DNA from: Streptomyces sp. SLBN-118
Lineage (GTDB): Bacteria > Actinomycetota > Actinomycetes > Streptomycetales > Streptomycetaceae
Assembly (NCBI RefSeq): GCF_006715635.1
Contig: NZ_VFNP01000001.1
Span: 1,364,001-1,428,000 of the forward strand
DNA: 64,000 nucleotides
Reading direction: 5' to 3'
The position numbers were made by a program, and so were the translations under genes. Numbering within the stretch: the first letter of the stretch is position 1; every line of letters starts with the position of its first letter. This document shows, one piece after another, positions 19,893 to 39,473 of the stretch. The notes under the pieces are model-generated. The model was not told where the DNA came from. It worked only from the letters and a program-made list of their open reading frames with translations, and did not search any database.

Positions 19893-20277
19893 GAGCGTTC
19901 GGCCTCCTGTCACTATCGAAGCGGGTGACTTGATTCCTTCTCTCCCCAAAGGGAGGGGATTCCTGCCTCACGTCGGCTGGGGACCGGCGGTCCGAAAGCC
20001 AGTCCGGGGCGTCCTCGGAGGTACCCGGTGATCTTGTGTGGCTGCGGATCAGCGAGGCAGAGCCAGTGTGACTGACTCGGCTGCATCAAACCGAAGTTGA
20101 ACTCTGCGCCTACGGGCAGGCCAACGGCGAACCCCGGATCCGGTGCGCGGCTACGTTCGGCCCCTTTGGGCCACGAAGCCCTGGACTACTCAGTGATTAC
20201 GGATCGACAGGCGCTACAGGGCCACGAAGAGCCGCGCGGGCGCCAGGGCATCAGCCCGGCGCTTGTCCGCGAGGAAC
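19893..20277. other. Gap with no supported gene
   Basis: About 385 bp between the SDR start and the end of the Ebo operon. Short frames only. The segment GGGCCACGAAG occurs twice (near 20,168 and 20,220). No clear terminator for the Ebo operon was found. This gap marks the change from the debris-rich left part to the well-ordered middle region. Confidence 0.35.
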
Positions 20278-20478
20278 TCAGTTCGAGTGCGGCCGACCGT
20301 CTCGGACCCATGTCACCACAACCAGGGCTGCGGTGACGTACATCAGGACGCTGAAGGTGGCTACGGACTCGACGTACTGCTCGTAGCCGTCTGCGCGCAG
20401 CTGAAGCGCAAGGGAACCAAGCGCAGTCCCAAGCGCTGCGGTACCGGCGGCCATGGCGACGAACGGGGCCTTCGTCAT
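20278..20478 (-). CDS. Small membrane protein, last gene of the Ebo-type operon
   Basis: 66 residues with two hydrophobic segments (about 6-27 and 40-58; VATFSVLMYVTAALVVVTWV) and a short polar tail, so it is probably a two-pass inner-membrane protein. ATG at 20,476-20,478 overlaps the stop of the preceding Tat-leader protein by 4 nt (ATGA), which indicates translational coupling. The family is not recognised. The position at the end of the operon suggests a membrane partner of the trafficking system. Confidence 0.6.
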   Translation of the reverse strand: MTKAPFVAMAAGTAALGTALGSLALQLRADGYEQYVESVATFSVLMYVTAALVVVTWVRDGRPHSN

Positions 20479-20663
20479 TGGTGCTTCCTCCGGCCTCGGC
20501 CGGGGGCGGTCGCCTGGGATGTCATCGGGGCCGCGGCGCAGGCCGGGCCCGCGGCGGCGCCGATGAGGCCGGCGGCGGTCGCACCGGCGGCGACGCCGAG
20601 CATGCCTCGTCTGCTGAGCCTGTGGGCGAGCTCGGGGTCGCTGTTGGCGGCGGAGCGGCTCAT
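20475..20663 (-). CDS. Tiny Tat-leader protein in the Ebo-type operon
   Basis: 62 residues. A Tat-like leader is clear: LSRRGMLGVAAGATAAGLIG, with the twin arginines at about 18-19, a hydrophobic core and a possible cleavage after an Ala-rich stretch (GPACAAA). Only about 20 residues would remain after cleavage. It lies 33 nt after the phosphodiesterase gene and overlaps the next small gene by 4 nt. Such a short mature part suggests a membrane-anchored or substrate-chaperone role, but the function is unknown. Confidence 0.6.
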   Translation of the reverse strand: MSRSAANSDPELAHRLSRRGMLGVAAGATAAGLIGAAAGPACAAAPMTSQATAPGRGRRKHQ

Positions 20664-20696
20664 GTGGATAACTCCTCGTTGTCAGTGGCGTCTGCT

Positions 20697-22091
20697 TCAG
20701 TGGAGTCCAGCGAGGTGAAGCAGCAGGGACTTCACGTCGGTCGCTTTCACGCGGCCGCTTACACCGCGGGGGGTGGAGCACACAATGAGCGGACCTTCTT
20801 CGTCGCTCGTGGGGAGGCGGCCATGGCTGCCGCGAATAGGTGAGGGGTCCAGGGGCACGACAGCGAGGCGGTAGCGCATACCGAGCTTCTTGCGGGCGAT
20901 CGCCTTCGCCGCCCTGACGCGTACGTAGGGGTCGAGCGGGTCCATGAACAGTTCGGCGGGGTCGTAGCCCGGTTTGCGGTGGATCTCGACGAGCTGCGCG
21001 AAGTCGGGGGCACGGGTTTCGTCGAGCCAGTAGTAGTACGTGAACCAGGCATCCGGTTCGGCGACGGCGACGAGTTCGCCGGACCGGGGATGGTCCAGGC
21101 CGTGGGTCTTCTTGCCTTCGTCGTCGAGGATTTGCTCGATGCCGGGCAGGTCCGCGAGGGCTCGGCGGGTGGCGTCGAGGTCCTCGGGGCGGCGGACGTA
21201 GATGTGGGCGAGCTGGTGGTCGGCCACGGCGAAGGCACGGGAGGCCATCGGGTCGAGGTACTCCATGCCGTCCTGCGTGTGGACCTCGAGCAGGCCCGCG
21301 CGGCGCAGGGCCCGGTTGATGTCGACGGGGCGGCTGACCGGGGTGATGCCGTACTCGGACAGCGCCACCACCGTGCGGCCCTCCCGCCGGGCGTCCTCCA
21401 GCAGCGGGGCGAGGGCGGCGTCCAGGTCGGTGGCGGCCTGGTGGGAGCGGGGGTCGTCGGGTCCGTAGCGCTGCAGGTCGTAGTCGAGGTGGGGGAGGTA
21501 GCACAGGGTCAGGTCGGGGTGGCGGGTGCGCATGATGTGCCGGGTGGCGTCGATGATCCACTGGCTGGAGACCAGGTCGGCGCCCGGGCCCCAGAAGTGG
21601 AAGAGGGGGAAGGTGCCGAGTGTGTGGGTGAGTTCGTCGTGCAGGGCGGGGGGTCGGGTGTAGCAGTCGGGTTCCTTGCGGCCGTCGGCGTAGTAGACGG
21701 GGCGTGGGGTGACGGTGATGTCGGTGTCGGCACCCATGGCGTACCACCAGCAGATGTTGGCGACGGTGTAGCCGGGGTGGGTGCGGCGGGCGGCGTCCCA
21801 GAGTTTGTCGCCGCCGACCAGCCCGTTGTGCTGGCGCCACAGCAGTACCTCGCCGAGTTCGCGGAAGTACCAGCCGTTGCCGACGACGCCGTGCTCGGCG
21901 GGCAGCGCACCGGTGAGGAAGGTGGACTGCGCGGCGCAGGTGACGGCGGGCAGCACCGTGGAAAGGGGGGCCTGGGAGCCGTTTCGGGCGAGGGCTTGGA
22001 GGTTGGGCATGTTTGCCAGCAGCTGTGGGGTGAGGCCGACGACGTCCAGTACCAGCAGGGGGGTGGGCGTGGGCTGTTCGGCGTCGGTCAT
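20697..22091 (-). CDS. Nucleotide pyrophosphatase/phosphodiesterase-family protein (alkaline phosphatase superfamily)
   Basis: 464 residues. It has the NPP/autotaxin-type layout: LVLDVVGL with a metal Asp (D16), catalytic Thr51 in LPAVTCAAQSTFLTG, EHGVVGNGWYF, and PHLDYDLQRYG with further metal ligands. These enzymes cleave phosphodiesters or pyrophosphates with two Zn2+ ions. No signal peptide is visible, so it appears cytosolic. It overlaps the eboE stop by 4 nt. In Ebo-type loci a phosphodiesterase of this kind is a usual companion, perhaps processing a phosphorylated or prenyl-diphosphate intermediate (inference). Confidence 0.85.
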   Translation of the reverse strand: MTDAEQPTPTPLLVLDVVGLTPQLLANMPNLQALARNGSQAPLSTVLPAVTCAAQSTFLTGALPAEHGVVGNGWYFRELGEVLLWRQHNGLVGGDKLWDAARRTHPGYTVANICWWYAMGADTDITVTPRPVYYADGRKEPDCYTRPPALHDELTHTLGTFPLFHFWGPGADLVSSQWIIDATRHIMRTRHPDLTLCYLPHLDYDLQRYGPDDPRSHQAATDLDAALAPLLEDARREGRTVVALSEYGITPVSRPVDINRALRRAGLLEVHTQDGMEYLDPMASRAFAVADHQLAHIYVRRPEDLDATRRALADLPGIEQILDDEGKKTHGLDHPRSGELVAVAEPDAWFTYYYWLDETRAPDFAQLVEIHRKPGYDPAELFMDPLDPYVRVRAAKAIARKKLGMRYRLAVVPLDPSPIRGSHGRLPTSDEEGPLIVCSTPRGVSGRVKATDVKSLLLHLAGLH

Positions 22092-23257
22092 GGGAGTTCC
22101 TTGAGTCCGAGGTTGGCCAACAGGCCGCGGGCCAGGGCGAGTTCGGCTGCAATGCCGTCGGCGAGCTGGGTGCGGCTACGGGGGCGCAGCTCGGGCGGCA
22201 GGGCCTGCCAGGTGTAGGTCTCGACCTCGAGGTGGCGGGTGAGCGGGACCGGACCGCCGACCAGCCGGGTCAGCGTGTCCTGGAGCACAGGGAGGGTGGA
22301 GGTGAGCGGAGGGGCGGGCGGGGCGTGCAGCGGGACATGGAAATGCGCGCGCCAGGGGGCGGTCTCGGGCAGCGCCGGGCCCGCCAGGGCTTCGTCGAGG
22401 TCGTCCGTGCCCCGCAGGCCGGCCGCGGTGCGGGTACGGGTCTGATGCAGGAAACGCGGCTCGGCGAAGGCTGCCAACGCGGCCCGCACGTCGGGGAGGT
22501 GGGGTTGTTCGGCATGGAGCGCGGCGGACAGCTGCGCCTTGGGGATGGTGATGCCCGCTGCGGTGAGTGCGGTCAGGGCGGTACGTGGTTCTTCGAAGGA
22601 GGTGGCGAGGTGGCAGGTGTCGATGCAGATGCCGATGCGGGGGGAAGCGATCACGGCAAGGGGACGTATGGCGTCCGCGGTGGTCTCGACGATGCAGCCG
22701 GGCTCCGGCTCCAGTCCGATGCGTATCGACTTCCCGGTCAGCTCCTCCAGAGCGTCCAGGCGCTCGGCGAGGGTGGCCAGTGCGGCGTGCGCGGCCTCGG
22801 CGGCCGCATCGCCGAAGGGGGTACGCCAGGCCAGCGGGAGGGTGGAGATGGTGCCCTCGGTGACATCGTCCGGCAGCAGGGAGGCGAGAAGGCGGGCCAG
22901 GTCGGTGGTGTGGGCGAGCCGTTCGGGATCGGCCCAGTCCGGCTTGTAGACCCGGTACTTGACCTCCTCGGCGCCGAAGCCTTCATAGGGAAAGCCGTTG
23001 AGGGTGACGACTTCCAGGCCGCGGCGGTCGAGTTCGGCGCACAGTCTCCGCAGTGCCGCCGGGTCGGTGACCAGGGAGCGGGCGGCGTCCTTGGCGAGCC
23101 ACAGGCCGATTCCGAGACGGTCACGACCCAGGCGTCTGCGTACCGGCTCGCAGTGGCGGCGCAGTTGGGCGATGACGCCGTCAAGGGTCTCCGCGGGGTG
23201 GACATTGGTGCAGTAGGACAGGTGGACAGTGGTGCCGTCGGGGTGGCGGAACCGCAT
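22088..23257 (-). CDS. eboE: Metabolite traffic protein EboE
   Basis: 389 residues. The N terminus (HLSYCTNVHPAETLDGV) and the central sequence (LEPEPGCIVETTADAI, ICIDTCHLATSFEEP, AGITIPKAQLSAALHAE) match EboE proteins, a TIM-barrel family related to sugar isomerases. Metal-type residues (Glu, Asp, His) are retained. Ebo clusters in cyanobacteria, algae and diverse bacteria are implicated in moving metabolite precursors to the periplasm (known for scytonemin); the EboE reaction is not established. ATG is preceded by GAGGAGG; it starts 12 nt after the TatD gene stop. Confidence 0.85.
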   Translation of the reverse strand: MRFRHPDGTTVHLSYCTNVHPAETLDGVIAQLRRHCEPVRRRLGRDRLGIGLWLAKDAARSLVTDPAALRRLCAELDRRGLEVVTLNGFPYEGFGAEEVKYRVYKPDWADPERLAHTTDLARLLASLLPDDVTEGTISTLPLAWRTPFGDAAAEAAHAALATLAERLDALEELTGKSIRIGLEPEPGCIVETTADAIRPLAVIASPRIGICIDTCHLATSFEEPRTALTALTAAGITIPKAQLSAALHAEQPHLPDVRAALAAFAEPRFLHQTRTRTAAGLRGTDDLDEALAGPALPETAPWRAHFHVPLHAPPAPPLTSTLPVLQDTLTRLVGGPVPLTRHLEVETYTWQALPPELRPRSRTQLADGIAAELALARGLLANLGLKELP

Positions 23258-23269
23258 GCGCCGGCCTCC

Positions 23270-24118
23270 TCATTCCCCGCCGCGGAGGATGGAGTTGCCC
23301 TCGTGCAGGGACTCCGGTTCGGGGATGTCGAGCTGGAGGCGGCCGCTGAGGCCGTAGAAGGCGACGGGGTTGCGCCACAGGACCTGGTCGACGTCGTCCC
23401 CGGTGAAGCCTGCGGCGAGCATGGCCTCGCCGACCTTGCGGGTTTTGAGCGGGTCGCTCTTGCCCCAGTCGGCGGCCGAGTTGACCAGCACCTTCTCCGT
23501 TCCGTACGCCTTGAGGATCGCGACCATCCGGTCCTCGTCCATCTTGGTGTCCGGGTAGATGGAGAAGCCGAGCCAGCAGCCACTGTCAGTGGCGTGCTTT
23601 ACGGTCGTCTCATTGAGGTGGTCGAGCAGAACGCGGTCCGTGGGCAGCGCGGATTCGCGGATGACGTCCACCGTGCGGTGGAGGCCCGCGAGCTTGTCGC
23701 GGTGCGGGGTGTGGACGAGGGCGGGCAGGTCGTGGTCGGCGGCGAGTTGCAGCTGGGCGGCGAGTGCGGTGTCTTCGGCCGGGGTCATCGAGTCGTAGCC
23801 GATCTCGCCGACGGCGACAACGGAATCCTTGACGAGATAGCGGGGCAGCTCCTTCAGAACGGGGGTACAGCGGGGGTCGTTCGCTTCCTTGGGATTGAGG
23901 GCGATCGTGCAGTGGTGGGCGATGCCGTACTGGGATGCGCGGAAGGGCTCCCAGCCGAGCAGGGCGTCGAAATAGTCGAAGAAGGAGGCGGGCGAGGTGC
24001 GGGGCTGGCCCAGCCAGAAGGACGGTTCGACCAGGGCCCGCACACCTGCGGCGTGCATCGCCTGATAGTCGTCGGTGGTGCGGGAGGTCATATGGATATG
24101 GGGGTCGAAGATGCGCAT
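23270..24118 (-). CDS. eboB: TatD-family metal-dependent hydrolase (EboB-like)
   Basis: 282 residues. It starts with MRIFDPHIHM, whose His-x-His pair (H7, H9) is the amidohydrolase/TatD metal site. Further ligands appear in VGEIGYDS (Glu), LVHTPHRDK (His) and LLDHLNETT (His). The length fits the family. ATG 24,116-24,118 overlaps the eboA stop. The EboB group of TatD proteins is always found with EboA, EboC and EboE; its substrate is unknown. The longer upstream frame is only the eboA shadow. Confidence 0.85.
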   Translation of the reverse strand: MRIFDPHIHMTSRTTDDYQAMHAAGVRALVEPSFWLGQPRTSPASFFDYFDALLGWEPFRASQYGIAHHCTIALNPKEANDPRCTPVLKELPRYLVKDSVVAVGEIGYDSMTPAEDTALAAQLQLAADHDLPALVHTPHRDKLAGLHRTVDVIRESALPTDRVLLDHLNETTVKHATDSGCWLGFSIYPDTKMDEDRMVAILKAYGTEKVLVNSAADWGKSDPLKTRKVGEAMLAAGFTGDDVDQVLWRNPVAFYGLSGRLQLDIPEPESLHEGNSILRGGE

Positions 24119-24798
24119 CAGAACTCCTCGGACTGCTCGCCGGTCAAGGTCAGCACGCGATTGAGGTCGGGGGGCACGGCGCGGCCGGCGGCGGTGCGCT
24201 CGGCGGCGTAGTCGGCGAGCATCCTGGCCAGCTCGTCGTCGCCCGCGGTACGTCGTTCCAGGCAGGCGACGGCGTCGACGGGGACGCCGGTGAACAGGCA
24301 CTTGAGGACGGCGTGGCGCCAGGCATGCTGATCGAGGTGCTCGGCTGCGTACGGGCCCACCGCTGCGGCGACCAGCCGGGTGTCGTTGGTACGCAGCGCG
24401 TCCTCGACAAGTGTGAGGGCGGAGGGACCTTCGAGGAGGTGGTGCAGGGCGAGGAGCACGGCACGGCGTTCGGCGGCAGTGCCCTGCCGGTAGAGGCGGG
24501 CGAGGGTGGCGCTGTCGGCGCGGGCCTCGACGAGGAGCAGGGTGCGTACGGAGTCTGCGAAGTGCGGGCCGCAGGCCCGGCCGGCTGAGGCGAAGCGGAG
24601 CTCCCAGAGGGGTACGGCGTGGGGGGACGGCTCAGTCGGGGGCCTGACGGCGGGGGCGGGTGGGGCCTCGGCAGCTCCGGCGACGTCGGCGGCCCCAGCG
24701 GCCTCAGCGGCGTCGGCGGCCTCGGCGAGGGCTTCGTCGAGCCAGGCGCGGGCGTCGTCGGGGAGCAGGGTGTCGAGTTCCTTGTGGGTCGGCGTCAC
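24118..24798 (-). CDS. eboA: EboA-domain protein
   Basis: 226 residues. After an Ala/Glu-rich N-terminal linker (about 20-60), the family core is visible: WRHAVLKCLFTGVPVDAVACL followed by DDELARMLADYAAERTAAGR and a C-terminal PDLNRV. These all-helical proteins have no known fold-based activity; they occur only in Ebo loci. It overlaps the upstream TIM-barrel gene by 4 nt and the downstream TatD gene. A cytosolic helical adaptor is likely. Confidence 0.85.
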   Translation of the reverse strand: MTPTHKELDTLLPDDARAWLDEALAEAADAAEAAGAADVAGAAEAPPAPAVRPPTEPSPHAVPLWELRFASAGRACGPHFADSVRTLLLVEARADSATLARLYRQGTAAERRAVLLALHHLLEGPSALTLVEDALRTNDTRLVAAAVGPYAAEHLDQHAWRHAVLKCLFTGVPVDAVACLERRTAGDDELARMLADYAAERTAAGRAVPPDLNRVLTLTGEQSEEF

Positions 24799-25655
24799 GA
24801 TGCCGGTGCTCCCTTCAGTGGGGTCTGCGATCGGAGGAAGTCGATGGAGGCGCGGGCGAGTTCGGGTCCCGCGTGGGAGTGGCGGGGCAGTTCGACGACG
24901 GTGAGTCCCTGGTAGCCGGTGGAGGCGAGGGCTTCGAGTACGGGCGGGAAGTCGATCTCCCCATCCCCGAAGGGGAGGTGTTCATGGACGCCGCGGCGCA
25001 TGTCCTCGATCTGGACATGGCGCAGCCAGGGGGCGGCGTCGCGTACGCAGTCGGCGGGCGGGGCCGGTTCGAGGCACTGGCAGTGGCCGATGTCGAGGGT
25101 GAGCCCGAGGGGTTCGGGGTCGCCGAGGATGCCGCGAAGGTGGTGGAAGTCGGCCAGGGTGGCCAGGAGATGGCCGGGCTCGGGCTCGATGGCGAGCGGC
25201 ACCCCGGCCTCGTCCGCGGCGGCCAGGACCGGGGTGAGCGCGTCGGCCAGCCGTTTCCATGCCGTCTCGTCGTCGACCCCGGGTGGGGCGATGCCGCTGA
25301 AGCAGTGCACGGCATGGGCGCCGAGGTCGGCGGCGACCTGCACGGCGGTGGTGAGCAGGGCGGTACGGGCTGAGCGGCCGTCGGGGTCCGGGTCGAGGAG
25401 GGAGGGGCCGTGTTTGCGGCGGGGGTCGAGGACATAGCGGGCGCCGGTCTCCACCGTGACGCCCAGTCCTAACTGGGCCAGTTTGTCGGCTACTTGACTG
25501 GTGCGGGCGGACAGGTTCGGGGCGAGTGGGTCCAGGTGCATATGGTCGAGGGTGAGTCCGACACCGTCGTATCCGAGGTCCGCGAGGAGGGCGAGGACGT
25601 CGCCCAGGCGGAGGTCGGTGAGGCCGTTGGTGCCGTAGCCGAAGTGCAGGCTCAT
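24795..25655 (-). CDS. Sugar phosphate isomerase/epimerase-family TIM barrel
   Basis: 286 residues, AP-endonuclease-2/xylose isomerase-like TIM barrel. It starts with FGYGTNGLTDLRLGDVLALL; metal-type residues are seen in LAIEPEPGH (Glu), LTLDIGHCQC (Asp, His), HVQIEDMRRG (His, Glu/Asp) and VELPRHSH (Glu). These enzymes isomerise or epimerise sugars or inosose-like compounds with a divalent metal. It sits between the UbiA gene and eboA with 4-nt overlaps on both sides. Because the operon begins with an inositol-phosphate synthase, an inositol-derived substrate is possible (inference). Confidence 0.8.
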   Translation of the reverse strand: MSLHFGYGTNGLTDLRLGDVLALLADLGYDGVGLTLDHMHLDPLAPNLSARTSQVADKLAQLGLGVTVETGARYVLDPRRKHGPSLLDPDPDGRSARTALLTTAVQVAADLGAHAVHCFSGIAPPGVDDETAWKRLADALTPVLAAADEAGVPLAIEPEPGHLLATLADFHHLRGILGDPEPLGLTLDIGHCQCLEPAPPADCVRDAAPWLRHVQIEDMRRGVHEHLPFGDGEIDFPPVLEALASTGYQGLTVVELPRHSHAGPELARASIDFLRSQTPLKGAPAS

Positions 25656-26785
25656 GTGACGCTGACCTTCCGTGCGAGATTGCGGGCGAGCGGGACGAGT
25701 GCCATCACCGCGAGGGCCGTGGCACCGGCGCCGGTGCGGGCGGCGAGGGTCGCCTGGAGAGGGATCATGGCCCGGATGCCGCCGCCGACGGCCCGCTGGG
25801 TGAGCGGCGGGGAGGGGTTGAGTGCGGCGTGGAGGAGGGGCTTGGCGGCGGTGCGGACGTAGGCGGCGGCGAGTGCGGTGCTGGCGAGCCGGGCCGTGGT
25901 GAGCGTCGCCTGCGGGGCGGGGGGTCGGGGTGACGGGCGGGGGCTCTCCCCTGCCCCGCCCCTTCCCGAAGCCGCGGGCAAGCCCTCAGGCCACTCGGCG
26001 GGGACGGGCAGCGCGGGCAGCTCCCGCCCTCGCACCCGCCCCCGCCCGGCACGCGCGCTTGTCGGCGCGTCCGGGCCGTGTGGAACACCGGCCGCGAGGG
26101 CGCCGAGCCCGAGCGTCGCCGCAAGCGCGACGAGGGGTGCGACTGTCGAGCCGCCCTGCGCCTCGTGACGCGAGACGGTCGTGACCGCGTACGTGTGCGC
26201 CGCGAGGACCGCGGCGGACGGCACCGCGGCGAGAACCCCCGGTCGGCCAACGCCCGCCGCGTACGCGCCCCGCAGCACGCCGGGGACCCCCGCCCCGCCG
26301 ACGCCGGCGCCGGAGCCGGCGCCCGGCCGGGCCGCGCCCGAACTAGTCGCCACCGCGCCCAGCACCAGGTCCAGCCCCCGCGCCGCCGCCATCGCCGCCG
26401 GGCCGCCTGCCGTGTGCTTGAAGTAGAGGTCGTACGACCAGACCGTCGCCGACAATGCCGACGCCACGGCCAATGCCGGGCGGCCCGCGCGGGACGCCAG
26501 CACCAGGCCCGCACCCGTCAGCGCGCCGGCGGCCCCGAGCGCCGCCGCAGGACTGACGCGGCCCGACGGGATCGGCCGATGCGGTCGCTCCACCGCATCC
26601 TCCTCCCTGTCCGCCCAGTCGTTCAGCGCCATCCCCGCCTCGTACAGGCACAGCGAGCTGCCGACGGCGAGCAGAGTCCGGCCATTCGCTCGCACGCCCG
26701 CCGCCGCCGCGCCCGCAAGCGCATCGCCCGGCACCGTGAACAGCGCCGACACCCGCAGCAGTTCCGCCCAGGCCCGCCAGGTCAC
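25652..26785 (-). CDS. eboC: SCO3242-like UbiA-family prenyltransferase (EboC-like)
   Basis: 377 residues, about nine hydrophobic segments. The first aspartate-rich motif is NDWADREED (N/D-x-x-D-x-x-x-D), followed by VERPHRPIPSG, which binds Mg2+-prenyl diphosphate. The second motif region is reduced to YDLYFKHT. UbiA enzymes attach polyprenyl or related chains to polar acceptors in the membrane. A central Gly/Pro/Arg-rich insert (about 235-290) is longer than usual. GTG 26,783-26,785 overlaps the inositol synthase stop (GTGA). EboC is the UbiA member of Ebo clusters; here it could load an inositol-type acceptor (inference). Confidence 0.85.
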   Translation of the reverse strand: MTWRAWAELLRVSALFTVPGDALAGAAAAGVRANGRTLLAVGSSLCLYEAGMALNDWADREEDAVERPHRPIPSGRVSPAAALGAAGALTGAGLVLASRAGRPALAVASALSATVWSYDLYFKHTAGGPAAMAAARGLDLVLGAVATSSGAARPGAGSGAGVGGAGVPGVLRGAYAAGVGRPGVLAAVPSAAVLAAHTYAVTTVSRHEAQGGSTVAPLVALAATLGLGALAAGVPHGPDAPTSARAGRGRVRGRELPALPVPAEWPEGLPAASGRGGAGESPRPSPRPPAPQATLTTARLASTALAAAYVRTAAKPLLHAALNPSPPLTQRAVGGGIRAMIPLQATLAARTGAGATALAVMALVPLARNLARKVSVT

Positions 26786-27909
26786 CGCGCCTCCCGCAGT
26801 CGGCCCGCGAAGGACAGCAGCGTCTCGAACTGTTCACCCAGCGCCGCCGGACCCCCGTCCGGATCCTTGAAGTAGAAGCCCAGCTCCGGCAGGGGGCCCG
26901 CGAGGCCGACCTCATGCGCCCGCGCCACCAGTCGCGCCAGATCCAGAACCAACGGGGCCGCCAGTGCCGAGTCGCAGCCCTGCCAGATCGTCTGGAGGAC
27001 CATCCGCGAGCCCAGGAAACCCTCGAACGCGATGTGGTCCCAGGCCGTCTTCCAGTCGCCGAGCGCCGGGACGTCGTCGATATGGACCTCGCCCTCGGGC
27101 ACCATGCCCAGGGTGTCGTTGAGAACCCGGTTCTTGCCCGCGTTCTTCGCGGCCGCCGCGCCCGGGTCGGCCAGCGCCGCTCCGTCCCCGCCGCCCAGCA
27201 GGTTCGTACCCGACCACGCCCGTACCGTCAGGGCGCGCTGTACGAACATCGGGGCGAGCACGGAACGGAGCAGTGTCTGGCCCGTCTTGCCGTCGCGGCC
27301 CGCGTGGGGAAGTCCACGTGTCACGGCGACGTCGGTGAGGGCGGCGGTGCGCAGCCCGGTGGAGGGGGTGAAGTTGACGAAGGGGCACCCTGCCCGCAGG
27401 GCCGCGGCGGCGTAGAGCGAGCTGGGCGGCAGCCGCAGCGCATCGGGTTCGGGCACCGGCTCGGTGGAGGAGACGTTGACGACGACGACCCGGGCCAGCC
27501 GCCGCCGGGCCCGGAAGTCACTCATGTCCGCGGCGAAAGCGGCGATCAGTTCCTCGTCGGTCCGCGAGTCGTCGGACTGCGGCCCACCGGGACGTATCTC
27601 CGTGTCCGCGGCGGCCAGTTCACCCTGTACGGCTGCGGTGAGGCTGTGCGGCAGCACTCCGCCGGCGGCAAGCGCCTCGGCCCGTTTGGGCAGCGGGCAG
27701 TGTTCGGTGTCGTGGCCGCCGAAGACCAGCGACGCGAGGGGAGGCAGCCCCGATCCGGCGAATGGTGCGGTTTCCGTGACCATGCCGCTCGGGGGATGGA
27801 GTCCGGCGGTGATCGCCGCGCACCCCGCGACGGCCGTGGTGGCCACGGAACCGCGCGCTCCCACGAACCAGACTCCGGTGCGTGTCGTGCGGTCATTCCC
27901 GTTCGTCAC
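26782..27909 (-). CDS. Myo-inositol-1-phosphate synthase-family protein, first gene of the Ebo-type operon
   Basis: 375 residues. The NAD-binding N terminus (WFVGARGSVATTAVAG) and conserved segments (FVNFTPSTGL, AGRDGKTGQTLLRSVLAPM, NLLGGGDGAALADP, KNRVLNDTLG) place it in the inositol-3-phosphate synthase family, which cyclises glucose-6-phosphate via NAD. Key Lys residues of the synthase core (GKTGQT and a KN in AGKNRV) are present. GTG 27,907-27,909 follows GGGAGGC. It starts only 33 nt after a strong hairpin. Cyanobacterial Ebo loci carry EboD, another sugar-phosphate cyclase-type enzyme (dehydroquinate synthase-like), at this place, so this protein may fill that slot (inference). Confidence 0.85.
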   Translation of the reverse strand: MTNGNDRTTRTGVWFVGARGSVATTAVAGCAAITAGLHPPSGMVTETAPFAGSGLPPLASLVFGGHDTEHCPLPKRAEALAAGGVLPHSLTAAVQGELAAADTEIRPGGPQSDDSRTDEELIAAFAADMSDFRARRRLARVVVVNVSSTEPVPEPDALRLPPSSLYAAAALRAGCPFVNFTPSTGLRTAALTDVAVTRGLPHAGRDGKTGQTLLRSVLAPMFVQRALTVRAWSGTNLLGGGDGAALADPGAAAAKNAGKNRVLNDTLGMVPEGEVHIDDVPALGDWKTAWDHIAFEGFLGSRMVLQTIWQGCDSALAAPLVLDLARLVARAHEVGLAGPLPELGFYFKDPDGGPAALGEQFETLLSFAGRLREAR

Positions 27910-27941
27910 GGGCTGCCTCCCTGCCTTTCGGTGTGGTGGAG

Positions 27942-27981: not shown

Positions 27982-27997
27982 GTCTGGCGGGATGCGC

Positions 27998-30900
27998 CTA
28001 TGTGGGCAGTTCCCTGAGCTGGATGTCGCGGAAGGACACCTGATCGTCGGCGCCATGATTCTGGAGGCCGATATAGCCTTCCTTGAGGCTGCGGGCCGGG
28101 TCGGTGTTGGTGAAGTCGTTGATCTTCACGCCATTGAGGAAGATCTGCAGCCGCTCCCCCTGGACCCGGATCTCGTAGCTGTTCCACTGGCCGGGCGGCC
28201 GCAGGGCGCGGTCACGGGCCGCGAGGTCGGCCGACTTGAAGCCGTAAACGGCGCCCGTCGTGCGGTCGGGCGCATCGGTGGCGTCGATCTGCACCTCATA
28301 GCCGTTGTTCACTGCCGACCAGGGGTCGTCGGAGGCCGGGAAGCCCACGAAGACCCCGGAATTGTCGTCACCGTCCAGCTTCCAGTCGAGCTTGACCGAG
28401 TAGGACTTCAGCTCCTTGGCCTGGTACCAGAGCATGCCCATGCCGCCCTCGGTGCGCAGTTCACCGTCGACGACAGTGAACTTTCCGGGCCCTGCCTGCT
28501 TCCAGCCGTCCAAGGTCTTTCCGTTGAAGATCGGCCGGTATCCGGTGTTCGGCCTGCAGTCGGCCCTGACCTGCCCTGCTGCGTAGCGCAGTCCGCCGAG
28601 CAGGTGCTGTCGGAAGGCCGGTTCGGCGTAGGACTCCTTGGTGTGGCCGCCTCCCGTGTAGAAGGCGCGGCCGCCCTGGTAGGTCTGGCACCAGGCGATG
28701 GGGTGGTCGCCCTTCATGGTGCCGCCCTGGTACGTGGTTTCGTCGAGGGTGGCCAGGACCCGCGCCTGCTCACGGGGGTTGGCGCGGTAGTTGTACCACT
28801 CGTCGGTGCGGTCCCAGGCGCTGTCGAGGTGGCTGGTCGCCGGATGGGTGTGGTCCTCGACCCGCACGGTCGCGGGCTGGATCTGCGGGTGCGACTGGAA
28901 GTACGCGCCGACGAGCCCGCCGTAGAAGGCCCAGTCGTACTCGGTGTCGGCCGCGGCGTGCACGCCCATGTAGCCGCCGCCTGCGGCGACATAGCTCTCG
29001 AACGCCTTCTGCTGGTCGGCGCCCAGGACATCCCCCGTGGTGGACAGGAACACGACGGCGTCATAACGGGCGAGGTTGCTGGTGGTGAACTGTGCCGCCT
29101 CCTCGGTGGCGTCGACGGTGATATTGCTGCTCGCGCCGAGTTCGCTCAGGGCTGCGATGCCGGTCGGGATGGAGTCGTGGCGGAAGCCGGCGGTCTTGGA
29201 GAAGACCAGCACACGCTTGGCGGTCCGGTCGAGGGGCGTGTTGGAGATTTCGAAGTCGTCCACGTCGTACAGCGCTCCCTGTCCGCCCTTGAACACCAGG
29301 AACAGTTCGGTGGTCTTCCTCGGTACGGCCCTCAGCGGGACGTCGACGTCCTGGAAGGTCTCCCAGCTGCCGGTGACGGGCACGGGTGTGGAACCGAGGA
29401 TCGGACCGCTCGCCGATCCGGTGCGCACCTCAAGGAAGCCGCCCGCTCCACCCGAGGAGATCCGGGCAGTGAGCTTGGTGGAGCCGGTGAGGTTGTAGGG
29501 CTTGAAGGCGATCCAGTCGCCGTTGTCGATGTCGCCGACCGTCTTGCCGCCGTGAGCGGGGGCCTTGTCGTGGAGCTTGATGCCCGATGAGGTGGTGAAG
29601 TGCTCGGCCTGCCGGTGGCGGGGCTGGAGCTGGGCCTGGTCGTGGCTGGTGAGCGCGGCCTGGCCGCCGCCTCCGCCGTCGGTGTATTCGGCGTCGAAGA
29701 CCCCGAAGATATTGGCGTTGGGGTCGTGGCCGCCGTCGGCGGATGTCTTGATGGTGCCGGTGCAGCCGTTGGCCGAGGTGACGGGGTGGCCGTGGCTGTC
29801 ATGGCCGAGGACGTATGTCACCTTCACTTTGGCGCAGTCGATGGTCCCGTCCTCGGGGTCGGTGACCCTGACCTTGAAGGGGATCTCGTCGCCGAAGCTG
29901 AACAGCTGTCCCTCGGCGGGAAGTTGCAAGGTCACCTTGGGCGCGGTGTTGCCGACCACGACATGGACGCCGGCGGAGCCGGTGCGGCCGCTGGGGTCCA
30001 TGGCGGTGACGGTCGCGGTGTAGGTGCCGTTCTTCTTGTACGTGTGCGTGGGGCCGGCCTCGGTGGATGTGCCGCCGTCGCCGAAGTCCCAGACGTAGGT
30101 GAGTGCGTCGCCGTCGGCGTCGCTCGTGCCGGCCGAGGAGAAGCCGACCCGCAGTGGGGTCTTGCCGGAGGTCTTGGTGGCGGTCGCTGCGGCGACCGGG
30201 GAGCGTCCGCCGGTCGCGTTCTCGATGCGGTAGAGGCCGGAGTTCTCGTCACCGCCGAACCAGGCGGTGCCGTAGTCGAGCACATACAGCGCACCATCGG
30301 GGCCGAAGGCCATGTCCATGACCTGGGTGCCGGTCCACGGGACCGGGTTGATGGCCTGGACCGCGCCGTCCTCGCCCTGCTCGATCCGCTTGATCCAGCG
30401 GCGGCCGAACTCACCGGCGAAGAAGTCTCCGTCGTACGCCGCGGGGAACTTGACCGGGGAGGTGGATGCGGCGTCGTAGCGGTAGACGGGTCCGCCCATC
30501 GGGGACTCGGAGCCGCTGCCGAACTCCGGCACGGAACCACCGTCGTAAGGAATCCAGGCCGGCTGCGCGGGCGGCAGGTCGACCAGGCCGGTGTTGTACG
30601 GCGACTCGTTCTTGGGCGCCGCGCAGTCGAAGGTCGCTCCGGATGTCTTTGTCGCGAAGTCGTAGTCGACGTACGGGTTGTTCTTGCCGGTGCAGAAGGG
30701 CCAGCCGAAGTTGCCGGGCTTGGTGATCCGGGCGAACTCGACCTGTCCTCCGGGGCCGCGTTCGGGGTCGGCCGCGCCCGCGTCGGGCCCGTAGTCGCCG
30801 ACGTAGACGATGCCGGTCTTCTTGTCGACGCTGAGCCGGAAGGGGTTGCGAAAGCCCATGGCGTAGATCTCGGGACGGGTCTTGGCGGTGCCGGGCGCGA

Positions 30901-31681
30901 AGAGGTTGCCGTCGGGGACGGAGTGGCTCGCGTCGTCCTTGACCTTGATACGCAGGATCTTGCCGCGCAGGTCGTTGGTGTTTCCCGAGGTGCGGCGTGC
31001 GTCGTACGCGGGGTTGCGTCCCGGGCGTTCGTCGATCGGGGTGTACCCGTCGGAGGCGAAGGGGTTGGAGTCGTCGCCGGTCGACAGATAGAGGTTGCCC
31101 TGCGCGTCGAAGTCGATGTCGCCGCCGACGTGGCAGCAGATGCCACGGGTCGCGGGAATGTCGATGATCTTCTTCTCGCTGGCGTTGTCGAGGGTTCCGT
31201 CCGCCCTGAGCACGAAGCGCGAGAGCCGGTTGACGCCGTCGAACTTCGCCAACTCCTCGGCGGTGCCCTCATTGGGGGCGTCGCCCGCGGGGGTGTTCAG
31301 CGGGGGCGCGTAGTAGAGGTAGACGAAGCGGTTCTCGCGGAACTTGGGGTCGAGACCGATGCCTTGGAGGCCTTCCTCGTCGTGCGAGTAGACGGGGATG
31401 GTGCCGACGAGGCGGGTGTTGCCCGCGCTGTCGGTCATCCGCAGCTCGCCGTTGCGGGAGGTGTGCAGCACGCTGCGGTCGGGCAGGACCGCCAGCGACA
31501 TGGGTTCGCCGGTCTCCTCAGCACCCTTGGCGAGAGTGACCTGCTGGAATTCCTCGGCGGCCGGGGCCGGGTCGGCGGCGGATGCGGTCTGCGGCGCGGT
31601 GAGGGCGAGCGAGCCGGCGGTGAGAAGGCCGCCGGTGAGGAGTGCGAGTGCCTTGCGGGCTCTGTGCCGTTTCCTGTGCAC
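27998..31681 (-). CDS. Secreted multi-domain protein: PQQ-type sugar dehydrogenase, PKD, CBM, ThuA and DUF1080 domains
   Basis: 1227 residues. After a Sec-type signal (about 1-35) come a glucose/sorbosone dehydrogenase-like beta-propeller (about 45-500; HVGGDIDFDAQGNLYLSTGD, MAFGPDGALYVLDYG), a PKD domain (about 505-585), an NPCBM/CBM6-like jelly roll (about 690-815; DIDNGDWIAFKPYNLTG), a ThuA-like domain (about 820-1040; AAGGGYMGVHAAADTEYDW) and a C-terminal 3-keto-disaccharide hydrolase domain (DUF1080; FNGKTLDGWKQAG, DDNSGVFVGF). All five are typical of extracellular carbohydrate processing; the DUF1080 family hydrolyses 3-keto-glycosides. GTG 31,679-31,681 follows GGAGGA. It ends at a hairpin and carries in its upstream region a 27-bp element also present at the ROK gene. 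Confidence 0.88.
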   Translation of the reverse strand: MHRKRHRARKALALLTGGLLTAGSLALTAPQTASAADPAPAAEEFQQVTLAKGAEETGEPMSLAVLPDRSVLHTSRNGELRMTDSAGNTRLVGTIPVYSHDEEGLQGIGLDPKFRENRFVYLYYAPPLNTPAGDAPNEGTAEELAKFDGVNRLSRFVLRADGTLDNASEKKIIDIPATRGICCHVGGDIDFDAQGNLYLSTGDDSNPFASDGYTPIDERPGRNPAYDARRTSGNTNDLRGKILRIKVKDDASHSVPDGNLFAPGTAKTRPEIYAMGFRNPFRLSVDKKTGIVYVGDYGPDAGAADPERGPGGQVEFARITKPGNFGWPFCTGKNNPYVDYDFATKTSGATFDCAAPKNESPYNTGLVDLPPAQPAWIPYDGGSVPEFGSGSESPMGGPVYRYDAASTSPVKFPAAYDGDFFAGEFGRRWIKRIEQGEDGAVQAINPVPWTGTQVMDMAFGPDGALYVLDYGTAWFGGDENSGLYRIENATGGRSPVAAATATKTSGKTPLRVGFSSAGTSDADGDALTYVWDFGDGGTSTEAGPTHTYKKNGTYTATVTAMDPSGRTGSAGVHVVVGNTAPKVTLQLPAEGQLFSFGDEIPFKVRVTDPEDGTIDCAKVKVTYVLGHDSHGHPVTSANGCTGTIKTSADGGHDPNANIFGVFDAEYTDGGGGGQAALTSHDQAQLQPRHRQAEHFTTSSGIKLHDKAPAHGGKTVGDIDNGDWIAFKPYNLTGSTKLTARISSGGAGGFLEVRTGSASGPILGSTPVPVTGSWETFQDVDVPLRAVPRKTTELFLVFKGGQGALYDVDDFEISNTPLDRTAKRVLVFSKTAGFRHDSIPTGIAALSELGASSNITVDATEEAAQFTTSNLARYDAVVFLSTTGDVLGADQQKAFESYVAAGGGYMGVHAAADTEYDWAFYGGLVGAYFQSHPQIQPATVRVEDHTHPATSHLDSAWDRTDEWYNYRANPREQARVLATLDETTYQGGTMKGDHPIAWCQTYQGGRAFYTGGGHTKESYAEPAFRQHLLGGLRYAAGQVRADCRPNTGYRPIFNGKTLDGWKQAGPGKFTVVDGELRTEGGMGMLWYQAKELKSYSVKLDWKLDGDDNSGVFVGFPASDDPWSAVNNGYEVQIDATDAPDRTTGAVYGFKSADLAARDRALRPPGQWNSYEIRVQGERLQIFLNGVKINDFTNTDPARSLKEGYIGLQNHGADDQVSFRDIQLRELPT

Positions 31682-31889: not shown

Positions 31890-31911
31890 CTGCCTGAGCA
31901 CCTTGGGCCGG

Positions 31912-31937: not shown

Positions 31938-31965
31938 CTCAGCTGCCGCAATGTGCCGTACAGCG

Positions 31966-32970
<1,005 letters not shown>

Positions 32971-32978
32971 GCGACCTC

Positions 32979-34244
32979 CTAGGCCTGTGTTCGAGCGGAT
33001 GTCATGGATGTCGCGGATGTCGGTACGGGGGTGTAGACGGCGTTCTTCTCGGCGCTCTCCTCCACCGCCGCGAGCACCCGCTGCACCTGCAGCCCATCCG
33101 CGAACGACGGCGCCGGGTCGCTGCCCGCCGCGATCGCCTCGACCAGATCGCGGGCCTGGTGGGTGAAGGTGTGCTCGTAGCCGAGCGCATGGCCGGGCGG
33201 CCACCACGCCGCCAGATACGGATGGTCCGGCTCGGTGACCAGGATGCGCTTGAAGCCGGAGGATGCGGCGGGCTCGGTGTGTTCGTGGAAGAACAGCTCG
33301 TTCAGCCGCTCCAGGTCGAAGGCGAGCGAGCCGAGCTCGCCGTTGATCTCCAGTCGCAGGGCGTTCTTGCGTCCCGACGCCATCCGGGTGGCCTCGAAGG
33401 AGGCGAGGGCCCCCGACGCGAGGCGCCCGGTGAACACCGCCGCGTCGTCCACGGTGACCGGCCCCCGCCCAGCCCCGCCCGGCGCGGAAAGACCGGTCGA
33501 CGCCCCCGCGAGCAGCGGGCGTTCGCGCACGAACGTCTCCGCGAGCGCCGAGACTCCCACCAGCAGCTCCCCCGCCAGATACTGCGCAAGATCCACGATG
33601 TGCGCCCCCAGATCGCCGAGCGCTCCGGAGCCCGCGTGCTCGCGCCTGAGCCGCCAGGTGAGGGGGAACTCCGGGTCGACCAGCCAGTCCTGGAGATAGG
33701 TGAAGCGCACATGCCGCAGGGCGCCGAGCCTGCCGTCGGCGATCAGCCGGCGAGCGTACGCGATCGCGGGCACCCGCCGGTAGTTGAAGCCGACCATCGC
33801 CAACTGACCGTGTTGCCTGGCTCGTTCGGCTGCCGCGACCATCGTCTCGGCCTCGGCCACCGAGTTGGCCAGTGGCTTCTCGCACAGGACGTGCTTACCC
33901 GCCACCAGCGCCGCGACGGCGATCTCCGCATGGCTGTCCCCCGGCGTGCAGATGTCGACCAGCTGCACGTCGTCGCGGGTCACGAGGTCGCGCCAGTCCG
34001 TCTCCGCCGCCGCCCAGCCGTGCCGGTCGGCGGCGGCTCGCACGGCCGTCGCGTCACGGCCGGCGATCGCGGCGAGGACCGGCCGCAGCGGCAGGTCGAA
34101 GACGCGGCCGGCGGTGCGCCACCCCTGTGAATGGGCGGCGCCCATGAACGCGTATCCGACCATGCCGACGCCGAGCGCAGGGCGACCAGCGCCCGGCGGA
34201 CCGACGGGTGCCGGGACGGCGGCCTCACTGTCCCTCTGTTCCAT
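32979..34244 (-). CDS. Gfo/Idh/MocA-family NAD(P)-dependent oxidoreductase
   Basis: 421 residues. The N-terminal Rossmann domain has [18 protein letters not shown], and [15 protein letters not shown] then [13 protein letters not shown] carries the conserved EKP Lys. The C-terminal beta-sheet domain has [19 protein letters not shown] with the Asp-His typical of inositol- and glucose-type dehydrogenases. Members oxidise a ring hydroxyl of sugars, inositols or glycosides; many make 3-keto-glycosides. ATG 34,242-34,244 follows AGGAGGAGG. It is between the transporter and the isomerase gene, so it likely acts on the imported sugar. Confidence 0.88.
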
Positions 34245-34288: not shown

Positions 34289-35335
34289 TCAGCTGAACCC
34301 CGTGGGCAGGTACTCCTCGACGTTCTCCTTGGTCACGACGGCGGAGTACAGGGTGATCGAGGCGGGGATCTCCAGTTCCGACATGCCGCTCACGCCCTTC
34401 GCCTGGCCCAGCGCGCGGGCGAGGTCGATGGCGGACGCGGCCATGGTCGGCGGATACAGGACGGTGGCCTTCAGGACGCTGTTGTCGGCCTTGATGGCGT
34501 CCATCGCGGACTTGGCACCGGCGCCGCCGACCATGAGGAAGTCCTTGCGGCCCGCCTGCGCGATCGCGCGCAGTGCGCCCACGCCCTGGTCGTCGTCGTG
34601 GTTCCACAGAGCGTCGAACCGGCTCTGGGCCTGGAGGAGTTGTGCCATCTTCGCCTGCCCGGACTCGACGGTGAACTCGGCCGCCTGGCGGGCCACCTTC
34701 TTGATGTTGGGGTAGTTCTTCAAGGCGTCGTCGAAGCCCTGGGTGCGCTGCTTGGTAAGCTCCAGGTTGTCGAGTCCGGCCAGCTCTACGACCTTGGCGT
34801 TCGGCTTGTCCTTGAGCTGCTCGCCGATGTAGTTGCCGGCGTTGAGGCCCATGCCGTAGTTGTCGCCGCCGATCCAGCAGCGGTACGCCTGCGGGGAGGC
34901 GAAGATCCGGTCCAGGTTGATGACGGGGATGCCCGCCTTCATGGCCTGCAGGCCGATCTGGGTGAGGGCCTTGCCGTCGGCGGGGAGGATGACGAGGACG
35001 TCGACCTTCTTGTTGATCAGGGTCTGGACCTGGCCGATCTGGGCGGCGGTGTCGTTGGAGCCCTCGGTGATTTCCAGCTTCACCTCGGAGTACTTCTTCG
35101 CACGCGACTTGGCGTTCTCATTGATCGCGTTGAGCCAGCCGTGGTCGGCCTGCGGTCCGGCGAAGCCGATGGTGACGGCCTTGCCCGGCTTGTCGTCCGC
35201 CGCGGGCACGTTGTTGGTGGCCGCCTCCGACTTCTTGGGCTCATTGCTGGTGCAGGCGGACAGCAGCGCGCCGGCGGAGACGGCGGCCGTGCCGAAGAGC
35301 AGTCCTCTGCGGCTGTGGGCTGGGATGTGTGGCAT
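34289..35335 (-). CDS. Sugar ABC transporter substrate-binding lipoprotein (Tat-type)
   Basis: 348 residues. The N terminus SRRGLLFGTAAVSAGALLSAC has a twin-Arg followed by a lipobox (LLSAC, Cys28), so it is probably exported by Tat and lipidated. The rest is a periplasmic-binding protein type 1 (RbsB-like) fold: VTIGFAGPQADHGWLNAINE and DVLVILPADGKALTQIG. It captures a simple sugar or polyol at the outer membrane face of the cell and hands it to the permease. No sugar can be named from sequence. It is 59 nt after the permease gene. Confidence 0.9.
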   Translation of the reverse strand: MPHIPAHSRRGLLFGTAAVSAGALLSACTSNEPKKSEAATNNVPAADDKPGKAVTIGFAGPQADHGWLNAINENAKSRAKKYSEVKLEITEGSNDTAAQIGQVQTLINKKVDVLVILPADGKALTQIGLQAMKAGIPVINLDRIFASPQAYRCWIGGDNYGMGLNAGNYIGEQLKDKPNAKVVELAGLDNLELTKQRTQGFDDALKNYPNIKKVARQAAEFTVESGQAKMAQLLQAQSRFDALWNHDDDQGVGALRAIAQAGRKDFLMVGGAGAKSAMDAIKADNSVLKATVLYPPTMAASAIDLARALGQAKGVSGMSELEIPASITLYSAVVTKENVEEYLPTGFS

Positions 35336-35394: not shown

Positions 35395-36429
35395 TCAGTG
35401 TTCTGAGCCGCGCAGGGTGCGGTTCTGCACCAGGACGGCGGCGACGATGATCGCGCCCTTCGCGATCTGCTGGACGGCGCTCTCCAGGTTGTTGAGGGCG
35501 AAGATGTTGGTGATCGTGGTGAAGACGAGGACGCCAAGCACCGAGCCGACGATGGTGCCCCTGCCGCCGCTGAGCAGCGTGCCGCCGATGATCGCCGCGG
35601 CGATGGCGTCGAGTTCGTAGAGATTGCCGTTGGTGTTCTGTCCCGAACCGGCCAGGACGATCAGCATGAACGCGGCGATGCCGCAGCACAGTCCGGAGAG
35701 CAGATAGAGGTAGAGCCGCTGGCGGCGTACGTCGATACCGGCGAGGCGGGCGGCTTCCGCGTTACCGCCGACTGCGACGGTGCGCCGTCCGAAGGTGGTG
35801 CGGTTCAGCAGCAGCCAGCCGACGACCGTGACCGCCGCGAAGACGAGGACGAGGGGCGGGATGCCGAGGATGTACGCGTCCTTGATACCGAGGTCCAGCA
35901 CGGAGTTGACGGTGACCATCTGGGTCTTGCCGTCGGTGATCTGCAGGGCGAGACCGCGGGCCGATGCGAGCATCGCGAGGGTCGCGATGAACGGCACCAT
36001 CCCGCCGTACGCGATGAGCAGACCGTTCACCAGACCGCAGCCCAGGCCGACGACCACGGCGGTGAAGAGGATGCCCGCGAAGCCGTACTCCTGCGTCGCC
36101 ACCGTTGTCGCCCACACCGACGCGAGGGCCACGATCGCGCCGACCGACAGGTCGATGCCTCCGCTGGTGATCACAAAGGTCATGCCGACGGTGACGACAC
36201 CGATGATCGACGCCTGGGTGAGGACGAGCTGAAGATTGCTGGTGGCGAGGAACGCGTCGGGCTTGGTGATGCCGCCGACCACGATCAGTACGGCAAGGAC
36301 GCCGAGCAGCGACAGATTGCGGACGTCCGTGCGCAGTCCCAGAGGTCGACGCCAACCTCCCGCTGCCGGTGCGGACTTGGTGGTGGGTATCGGCGCGTCC
36401 TGCCGCGCCGGAGATGCCGGCTGCGTCAT
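35395..36429 (-). CDS. Sugar ABC transporter permease (RbsC-like)
   Basis: 344 residues with about ten hydrophobic segments, BPD_transp_2 (ribose/xylose/arabinose class) family. TSGGIDLSVGAIVALASV is the conserved loop with the Gly-Gly-Ile-Asp-Leu-Ser signature, followed by GLVNGLLIAYGGMVPFIATL. A single permease forming a homodimer is usual in this class. ATG overlaps the ATPase stop by 4 nt. Confidence 0.92.
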   Translation of the reverse strand: MTQPASPARQDAPIPTTKSAPAAGGWRRPLGLRTDVRNLSLLGVLAVLIVVGGITKPDAFLATSNLQLVLTQASIIGVVTVGMTFVITSGGIDLSVGAIVALASVWATTVATQEYGFAGILFTAVVVGLGCGLVNGLLIAYGGMVPFIATLAMLASARGLALQITDGKTQMVTVNSVLDLGIKDAYILGIPPLVLVFAAVTVVGWLLLNRTTFGRRTVAVGGNAEAARLAGIDVRRQRLYLYLLSGLCCGIAAFMLIVLAGSGQNTNGNLYELDAIAAAIIGGTLLSGGRGTIVGSVLGVLVFTTITNIFALNNLESAVQQIAKGAIIVAAVLVQNRTLRGSEH

Positions 36430-39234: not shown

Positions 39235-39293
39235 GTGCCCCTCCCCGCCGATTCGGCCGCGTTCGTTGTTCTTTCGAGGGGAACGTAGCAGCG

Positions 39294-39317
39294 CTTTGCC
39301 CAACTGGGAAGAACTTG
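39294..39317 (+). promoter_or_regulatory. Second, inverted and looser copy of the shared element
   Basis: CTTTGCCCAACTGGGAAGAA and the following CTTG resemble the shared 27-bp element (CTTTGTCC ... GGGAAxAAGTTG) but in the opposite orientation and two bases shorter. It lies about 60 bp before the ROK start and 15 bp from the other copy, so the two could form a pair of facing binding sites. Confidence 0.4.
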
Positions 39318-39332
39318 CGCGGGGTTCGGGTG

Positions 39333-39359
39333 CAACTTTCCCCACACTCGGGACAAAGA
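39333..39359 (-). promoter_or_regulatory. 27-bp shared element upstream of the ROK gene
   Basis: Minus-strand sequence begins TCTTTGTCCCGAG and ends GAAAGTTG. It shares 19 of 27 positions with 31,863-31,889 and lies about 100 bp before the ROK GTG. It is the candidate autoregulatory operator. The inner part differs more than the two ends, as expected for a two-half-site protein contact. Confidence 0.6.
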
Positions 39360-39473
39360 TCTGATCGCCGTCGATCGAGTCCTGGAGACTCAGGACGGAG
39401 GCGGGAGCCGAGGCCGTTCCGGGCGTGGGCCGAGGCACACGCCTCGGCCTTCGCCTGAACGGGCGTTGCTCGC

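Follow-up and report, generated by a model that had tools for sequence, protein, structure and literature searches.

We have found an ebo operon in which a cyclase of the myo-inositol phosphate synthase (MIPS) type takes the place of EboD, in a 64,000-nucleotide (nt) stretch of the Streptomyces sp. SLBN-118 genome (contig NZ_VFNP01000001.1, positions 1,364,001 to 1,428,000; hereafter the window). This EboD-less, MIPS-type ebo variant is real and widespread, and in this genome it is joined to a sugar-oxidation locus; its gene content, clade, linkage and residue conservation are established below. No paper describing such a variant was found in the literature searched. Tentatively, and at somewhat less than even probability, we propose that the pathway leads to a cyclitol-derived prenyl lipid or cofactor that serves extracytoplasmic oxidation by secreted beta-propeller-type oxidoreductases.

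According to the open reading frame (ORF) list and its coordinates, nine tightly packed minus-strand ORFs make up the chain at 20278..27909, in this order:

26782..27909, minus strand: MIPS-type cyclase, 375 aa, GTG start, in EboD's place (PF07994 120 bits, PF01658 101 bits)
25652..26785, minus strand: UbiA-superfamily prenyltransferase of the SCO3242 family, EboC counterpart (PF01040; NF045897 376 bits)
24795..25655, minus strand: TIM1, xylose-isomerase-like TIM barrel (PF01261 152 bits)
24118..24798, minus strand: EboA-domain protein (NF035938 162.3 bits, cut-off 50)
23270..24118, minus strand: EboB-like TatD-type hydrolase (PF01026 48 bits)
22088..23257, minus strand: EboE (NF035939 427.9 bits, cut-off 250; PF01261)
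20697..22091, minus strand: EboF-like NPP-type phosphodiesterase (PF01663 232 bits)
20475..20663, minus strand: 62-aa remnant of a gene for a TIM-barrel protein exported by twin-arginine translocation (Tat), leader only (N-terminal match to relatives' full ORFs)
20278..20478, minus strand: DUF6405 small membrane protein (PF19943 98 bits)

Spacings along the chain, from MIPS to DUF6405, are -4, -4, -4, -1, 12, -4, 33 and -4 nt, in agreement with an earlier note on this DNA that had described nine minus-strand genes in a close chain. The conserved core is the seven genes from MIPS through EboF. Among the features of a classical ebo cluster, the EboA domain, EboE, the TatD-type EboB (PF01026) and the NPP-type EboF (PF01663) are all present above cut-off; the EboC equivalog model (NF035940) gives only 122 of 250 bits and no EboD cyclase is present, which is why the operon is classed as a variant. 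EboD is counted as missing because the only DHQ_synthase (PF01761) gene found by profile search of the genome sits on another contig, C2. The absence of EboD reported in the earlier note therefore stands, and the NAD-dependent-type cyclase placed there instead is borne out by its MIPS domains, its separate clade and its repeated linkage to EboE.

By its sequence the window cyclase is distinct from housekeeping ino1. It carries both family domains (PF07994 and PF01658) above cut-off and scores only 27.2 of 638 bits with TIGR03450, the model for housekeeping (mycothiol) ino1. Three MIPS genes are held by this genome: the window copy, a second divergent copy and a housekeeping-type copy at C1:3883440. 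Phylogeny was inferred from 56 rows, with the PDB sequences (1u1i, 6k96) left outside the tree. Ebo-linked actinobacterial MIPS and unlinked offshoots form one set of 31 rows (support 100/99), joined by five haloarchaeal rows at 96/96, and the window copy pairs with the second divergent copy (97/97). Seven housekeeping rows form a set of their own (100/99), with which the C1:3883440 copy groups, across a long branch for which the tree is flagged for possible long-branch and composition effects. The clade check suggested in the earlier note thus places the synthase apart from housekeeping ino1.

The best solved relative of the window MIPS, and its best PDB match, is Archaeoglobus Ino1 (1u1i). 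Catalytic positions N255, K278, K306 and K367 of A. fulgidus Ino1, among which K306 and its catalytic role are presumed by us, correspond to N236, K259, K287 and K348, and these four are invariant in the alignment (24/24 ebo, 7/7 solo and 5/5 haloarchaeal rows). Three of the four are the positions altered in mutant structures 3qw2, 3qvw and 3qvx, and they are kept in the window MIPS. Because the catalytic residues are kept, the enzyme is probably active and a cyclitol phosphate is a plausible product, so that the cyclitol-making pathway read into the operon earlier gains support as far as this step.

Linkage was assessed in a Streptomycetaceae sample of 121 genomes, 43 with EboE and 78 without, and at 57 EboE loci, of which 47 come from that sample and one each from ten other genomes of a 396-genome phylum sample. 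Of the 43 EboE-positive Streptomycetaceae, 42 have two or more MIPS genes, vs 7 of the 78 EboE-negative ones. Fifty of the 57 EboE loci have a MIPS gene on their own strand no more than 10 kb away, and 49 of these additionally have an SCO3242-type UbiA. One further locus (G490) is a classical ebo operon with DHQ_synthase in MIPS's stead. The other six are without a nearby MIPS domain: G063, where the locus appears split over contigs; G083 and G100, with an ebo-clade MIPS elsewhere in the genome, unlinked to EboE; the second locus of G033; G029, a lone EboE; and G391, where EboE is broken and below threshold. In the best 80 of 568 named loci, which are the nearest relatives and nearly all Streptomyces, MIPS stands beside ebo genes in 69; seven have no ebo genes despite 9 kb of downstream sequence, and four end at a contig edge. 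The gene-order comparison across Streptomyces that had been suggested shows, accordingly, a recurrent MIPS-ebo linkage. The outcome fixed beforehand as speaking against the earlier note, a synthase grouping with housekeeping copies and no linkage to eboA/eboE in other genomes, was examined as a pre-set test, and neither part of it was found.

Several individual loci are recorded here as observations. The G083 ebo operon has only a MIPS fragment in place (L009 8519-10251), and the intact ebo-clade MIPS of that genome lies on another contig beside sugar-oxidation genes (L024/L072). The actinobacterial genome with a degraded-looking ebo locus (G391) holds a MIPS and TIM1-type gene pair (L047 7252-9414) near frames that by eye resemble TsaD/TsaB. 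In Streptomyces sp. JH14 the two ends of a 6.58-Mb contig each appear to carry the locus, oppositely oriented, as though it lay within terminal inverted repeats (L101, L102). Streptomyces plasmids carry MIPS-type ebo operons inside or beside type II polyketide synthase (PKS), nonribosomal peptide synthetase (NRPS) or aromatic prenyltransferase/multicopper oxidase groups (L151, L157, L158, L163).

The second divergent MIPS of SLBN-118 overlaps an EboA gene and lies directly behind a ScyD/ScyE-family gene (L004 9722-12895; C1 about 674-677 kb); no further ebo genes were found in the 19 kb around the pair. The ScyD/ScyE-family gene scores 246 bits against a cut-off of 80 and is the only match of its family in the genome. 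Such neighbours were counted in 53 genomes with an EboE match, within 15 kb of anchors defined as EboE or ebo-type MIPS, and expectations assume random placement in 8 Mb per genome. Ten of 24 full-length ScyE-family matches lie within this distance, all ten on the anchor's strand, vs about 0.1 expected; for GSDH the count is 31 of the 150 matches listed vs about 0.7. One or the other family occurs within 15 kb of at least 35 of the 57 EboE loci, a lower bound because GSDH matches were counted only among those listed and some contigs end early, and of 6 of 7 further MIPS anchors, one of which belongs to an operon split in two. Ebo/MIPS loci are found next to ScyE- and GSDH-family genes more often than random placement predicts. 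In S. camelliae and NBC_00019 the gene immediately preceding the MIPS-ebo operon is ScyE, and multicopper oxidase and cytochrome ubiquinol oxidase genes lie close by. We take the ScyE, GSDH and DUF7133 proteins to be beta-propellers; NHL-repeat matches are found in ScyE-family proteins.

In the window, a larger same-strand locus spans 20278-39438, and the ebo chain is its downstream half. The earlier gene list was incomplete, having missed the oxidation and import genes that lie upstream and travel with the operon:

27998..31681, minus strand: GSDH-PKD-CBM6-ThuA-DUF1080 protein, 1227 aa (Pfam), 88 nt upstream of MIPS
31966..32970, minus strand: TIM2, sugar phosphate isomerase/epimerase-like (PF01261 148 bits; IolE model 37 of 290 bits)
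32979..34244, minus strand: Gfo/Idh/MocA oxidoreductase (PF01408; levoglucosan dehydrogenase model 353 of 650 bits, IolG 107 of 355 bits)
34289..35335, minus strand: sugar ATP-binding cassette (ABC) importer, substrate-binding protein (PF13407)
35395..36429, minus strand: sugar ABC importer, permease (PF02653)
36426..37949, minus strand: sugar ABC importer, ATPase (PF00005, two stretches)
38044..39438, minus strand: ROK-family protein, a probable repressor (PF00480 200 bits)

The GSDH protein, which from the look of its N-terminus would be secreted, scores 118 bits with PF07995 but only 49.8 of 434.55 bits with TIGR03606. Among the 59 named loci that include UbiA and extend 6 kb or more upstream, TIM2 was found within 9.5 kb of the operon in 59/59, the GSDH gene in 55/59 and its ThuA-DUF1080 part in 50/59; in a few of them the GSDH gene is downstream instead. 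The seven MIPS loci without ebo genes have GSDH downstream (7/7) and ABC/ROK genes upstream (6/7). Some more distant loci keep sugar-locus genes in other orders, e.g. GSDH downstream in G317 and G170, and others keep none.

The UbiA protein belongs to the SCO3242 family by NF045897 (cut-off 260 bits). Its first Asp-rich motif, NDxxDxxxD, is present as NDWADREED and is kept in 12/12 aligned EboC, SCO3242 and haloarchaeal UbiA sequences. A second Asp-rich motif is typical of the UbiA superfamily; by eye, in an alignment of these 12 without a reference UbiA, no DxxxD-type motif was seen at the expected place, so EboC/SCO3242-type UbiA proteins may work by a chemistry other than that of the usual quinone prenyltransferases. 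TIM1 matches hydroxypyruvate isomerase, IolO and IolE models far below cut-off. EboA gives 66 of 320 bits with the stricter family model NF035937; its structure model is predicted all-helical (predicted local distance difference test score 93.7), and structure comparison returned no specific fold match.

The two distal ORFs, given as operon members in the earlier note, do not hold up as such. The 62-aa ORF has a weak Tat-signal match and aligns with the N-terminus of Tat-leader xylose-isomerase-like TIM-barrel ORFs, mostly of 350-400 codons, behind EboF in relatives; among the 54 operon loci that extend far enough downstream, 39 have the full gene (core match >250 bits). A genome search for the full gene returned the remnant itself as its only match, and by these alignments the ORF is a truncated remnant. 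The two-transmembrane DUF6405 ORF lacks conservation, with no match beyond the window among the relatives' loci compared. Further downstream, a short-chain dehydrogenase gene (window 19074-19949, minus strand) was observed; it was not near the operon in any of the 59 named operon loci that reach far enough upstream.

Beyond Actinobacteria, ebo-like MIPS sets occur on plasmid records of Natronococcus, Halobaculum and Halocatena (TatD, TIM, UbiA, TIM, MIPS, NPP), running in one direction or divergent. The Natronococcus UbiA, from the one haloarchaeon scanned, gives 197 of 250 bits with the EboC model, and because Natronococcus scores below the EboE and EboC cut-offs these sets are, by those cut-offs, relatives rather than members. 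A single Gemmatirosa record holds TIM1, MIPS, UbiA, EboF, EboB and EboE, with no EboA match in the set. Two Halomarina records have MIPS without ebo genes. Two haloarchaeal genes of the GSDH type that lie close to ebo-like MIPS sets encode a plastocyanin/azurin-type copper domain (L142 16568-19231, L145 3-1829). Ketogulonicigenium, Azospirillum, Mycetohabitans, Salipiger and Deinococcus have classical EboD-type operons, with a pyrroloquinoline quinone (PQQ) propeller near the Salipiger locus and a DUF7133 protein and c-type cytochrome near that of Ketogulonicigenium. A separate MIPS-led cluster (MIPS, Gfo/Idh/MocA, YcaO, TIM barrel, PIG-L deacetylase; no ebo genes annotated) is common to two phyla, on plasmids of Hymenobacter volaticus (L146 9959-18660) and Roseomonas haemaphysalidis (L147 9977-19289), and is possibly a new cyclitol pathway.

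From these data we infer the enzymatic steps, the product, the UbiA substrate and the role of the operon as follows. MIPS, in place of EboD, would make a cyclitol phosphate, probably of the inositol type, from glucose 6-phosphate; this is the step of the proposed mechanism that has direct sequence support. Its cytoplasmic processing would fall to TIM1, EboB, EboE and EboF; in the membrane the SCO3242-family UbiA would add a prenyl chain, and EboA may act as a helical scaffold. Once at the outer face, the prenylated product would serve secreted beta-propeller-type oxidoreductases in one of three capacities: cofactor, assembly factor or electron acceptor. In SLBN-118 these enzymes would be the GSDH protein, whose gene immediately precedes MIPS, and the ScyD/ScyE-family protein, whose gene adjoins the second MIPS-EboA pair. 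The ABC system would take up the oxidised sugar, on which MocA and TIM2 would then act.

A number of observations weigh against this proposal. The strongest evidence against a cofactor comes from localisation in Nostoc, where, in the sections of Klicki et al. consulted, the monomer is cytoplasmic in ebo mutants and reaches the periplasm in the scyE mutant, with about 6% vs 21% in periplasmic preparations (PMC6282210). Among the matches listed, 22 of the 57 EboE loci are without ScyE or GSDH within 15 kb, a count that includes G170, which has a GSDH gene by separate query. Because the sampled genomes share ancestry, the expectations treat them as more independent than they are, and the GSDH linkage in Streptomyces may go back to a single inherited arrangement. 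No oxidoreductase-type neighbour was found by annotation and queries in the stretch fetched at 5 of 9 non-actinobacterial ebo-type loci (Azospirillum, Deinococcus, Mycetohabitans, Halobaculum and Gemmatirosa). No EboA is annotated in the three haloarchaeal sets, the Natronococcus TIM barrels reach only 21-28 of the 250 bits that the EboE model requires, and the Gemmatirosa MIPS falls outside the ebo-plus-haloarchaeal set in the tree. pqqC is present in 8 of the 53 genomes with an EboE match; PqqC is absent from the other 45, this genome among them, though these may take up PQQ. Finally, we know of no product for any ebo system.

Klicki et al., in the text consulted, considered a cofactor role and then favoured translocation, because the intermediate remains cytoplasmic in ebo mutants (PMC6282210). 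A prenylated cyclitol carrier lipid would accordingly move small molecules across the membrane, and enzymes outside would just receive the cargo. The Nostoc distribution fits this, as do those MIPS-type ebo loci that neighbour NRPS or type II PKS genes, a setting in which exporting an intermediate would be reasonable. We regard it as possible though doubtful: the same text reports that no lipid-linked monomer was found, the window locus has an ABC importer and no recognised cargo-producing pathway, and the recurrent neighbour is itself an oxidase-type gene whose arrangement varies between lineages. A dedicated natural product, namely a prenylated cyclitol that is itself bioactive, is unlikely, since the gene order recurs widely (69 of the best 80 named relatives) and similar sets exist in haloarchaea, which makes a helper pathway look likelier than a strain-specific metabolite. 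Such a metabolite would nonetheless be in line with the NRPS/PKS genes beside some loci, with an isoprenoid-cyclitol ebo product proposed in the consulted part of Yurchenko et al. (PMC5133447), and with MIPS homologues that make antibiotic cyclitols, namely a protein named five-membered-cyclitol-phosphate synthase (PDB 6k96) and Ari2, described in the excerpt at hand as acting in aristeromycin biosynthesis.

An ordinary sugar or inositol locus, with MIPS feeding inositol to catabolism or lipids and incidental ebo neighbours, is improbable. The upstream MocA with its weak IolG match, the TIM barrels with weak IolE matches and the sugar importer suit it, as do the seven named loci with MIPS, downstream GSDH and no ebo genes. 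It does not account for the extra MIPS of EboE-positive Streptomycetaceae, found even where unlinked (G083, G100), nor for the unlinked copies in the tree, which fall within the ebo clade. Least credible by far is a housekeeping ino1 copy lying beside ebo by chance; it would share the same Pfam families, and is contradicted by the EboE linkage and the deep tree separation, with TIGR03450 far below cut-off and a separate housekeeping copy in the genome.

The function of the ebo genes is unsettled, and a non-orthologous swap of the ring enzyme, EboD for MIPS, is common in sampled Actinobacteria. Its occurrence also in the single Gemmatirosa and three haloarchaeal records supports a cyclitol as the entry metabolite. 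The MIPS variant offers a labelable substrate (glucose or inositol) in a genetically easy host, Streptomyces coelicolor, and the recurrent ScyE/GSDH pairing turns the vague label of metabolite traffic into a specific, testable idea of the ebo role. As a speculation that we consider quite unlikely, ebo could represent a new class of membrane redox lipid across Bacteria and Archaea. This would be a quinol-like compound, prenylated and derived from a cyclitol, with inositol phosphate (MIPS variant) or a C7 cyclitol (EboD variant) as its starting material. It would serve ScyE, GSDH and DUF7133 oxidoreductases as cofactor or electron acceptor and pass electrons on to partners whose genes lie next to several loci (blue-copper, cytochrome c, multicopper oxidase or bd oxidase).

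For comparison with known systems, the full gene order SCO3237-3243 in S. coelicolor is taken as we presume it to be. SCO3242 and SCO3243, beside the CDA genes, are a putative transferase and a myo-inositol phosphate synthase, apparently of the window's families (NF045897), and the section consulted lists them within the CDA cluster without function (PMC3610822). The window MIPS shares a fold family and catalytic Asn/Lys residues with Archaeoglobus-type inositol-1-phosphate synthase (1u1i); relative to that enzyme and to Ari2 (6k96) its clade is distinct and ebo-linked, and its substrate and product may differ. As in the classical eboABCDEF cluster, to the extent described in the parts consulted, EboA, TatD/EboB, an EboC-like UbiA, EboE and EboF lie in one operon (PMC5133447, PMC6282210); unlike it, the window operon has MIPS for EboD, an SCO3242-family UbiA and the extra TIM barrel TIM1. 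Yurchenko et al. mention, as data not shown there, an actinobacterial EboA fused to a xylose-isomerase-like domain (PMC5133447, section consulted). In the scy-ebo system of Nostoc punctiforme, according to the part of Klicki et al. at hand (PMC6282210), all the ebo deletion mutants constructed build up the monomer that also builds up when scyE is deleted, a finding in favour of our proposal. That system differs from the window operon in its cyclase; its ebo genes work with periplasmic ScyE, and in SLBN-118 a ScyD/ScyE-family gene likewise lies beside a MIPS-EboA pair.

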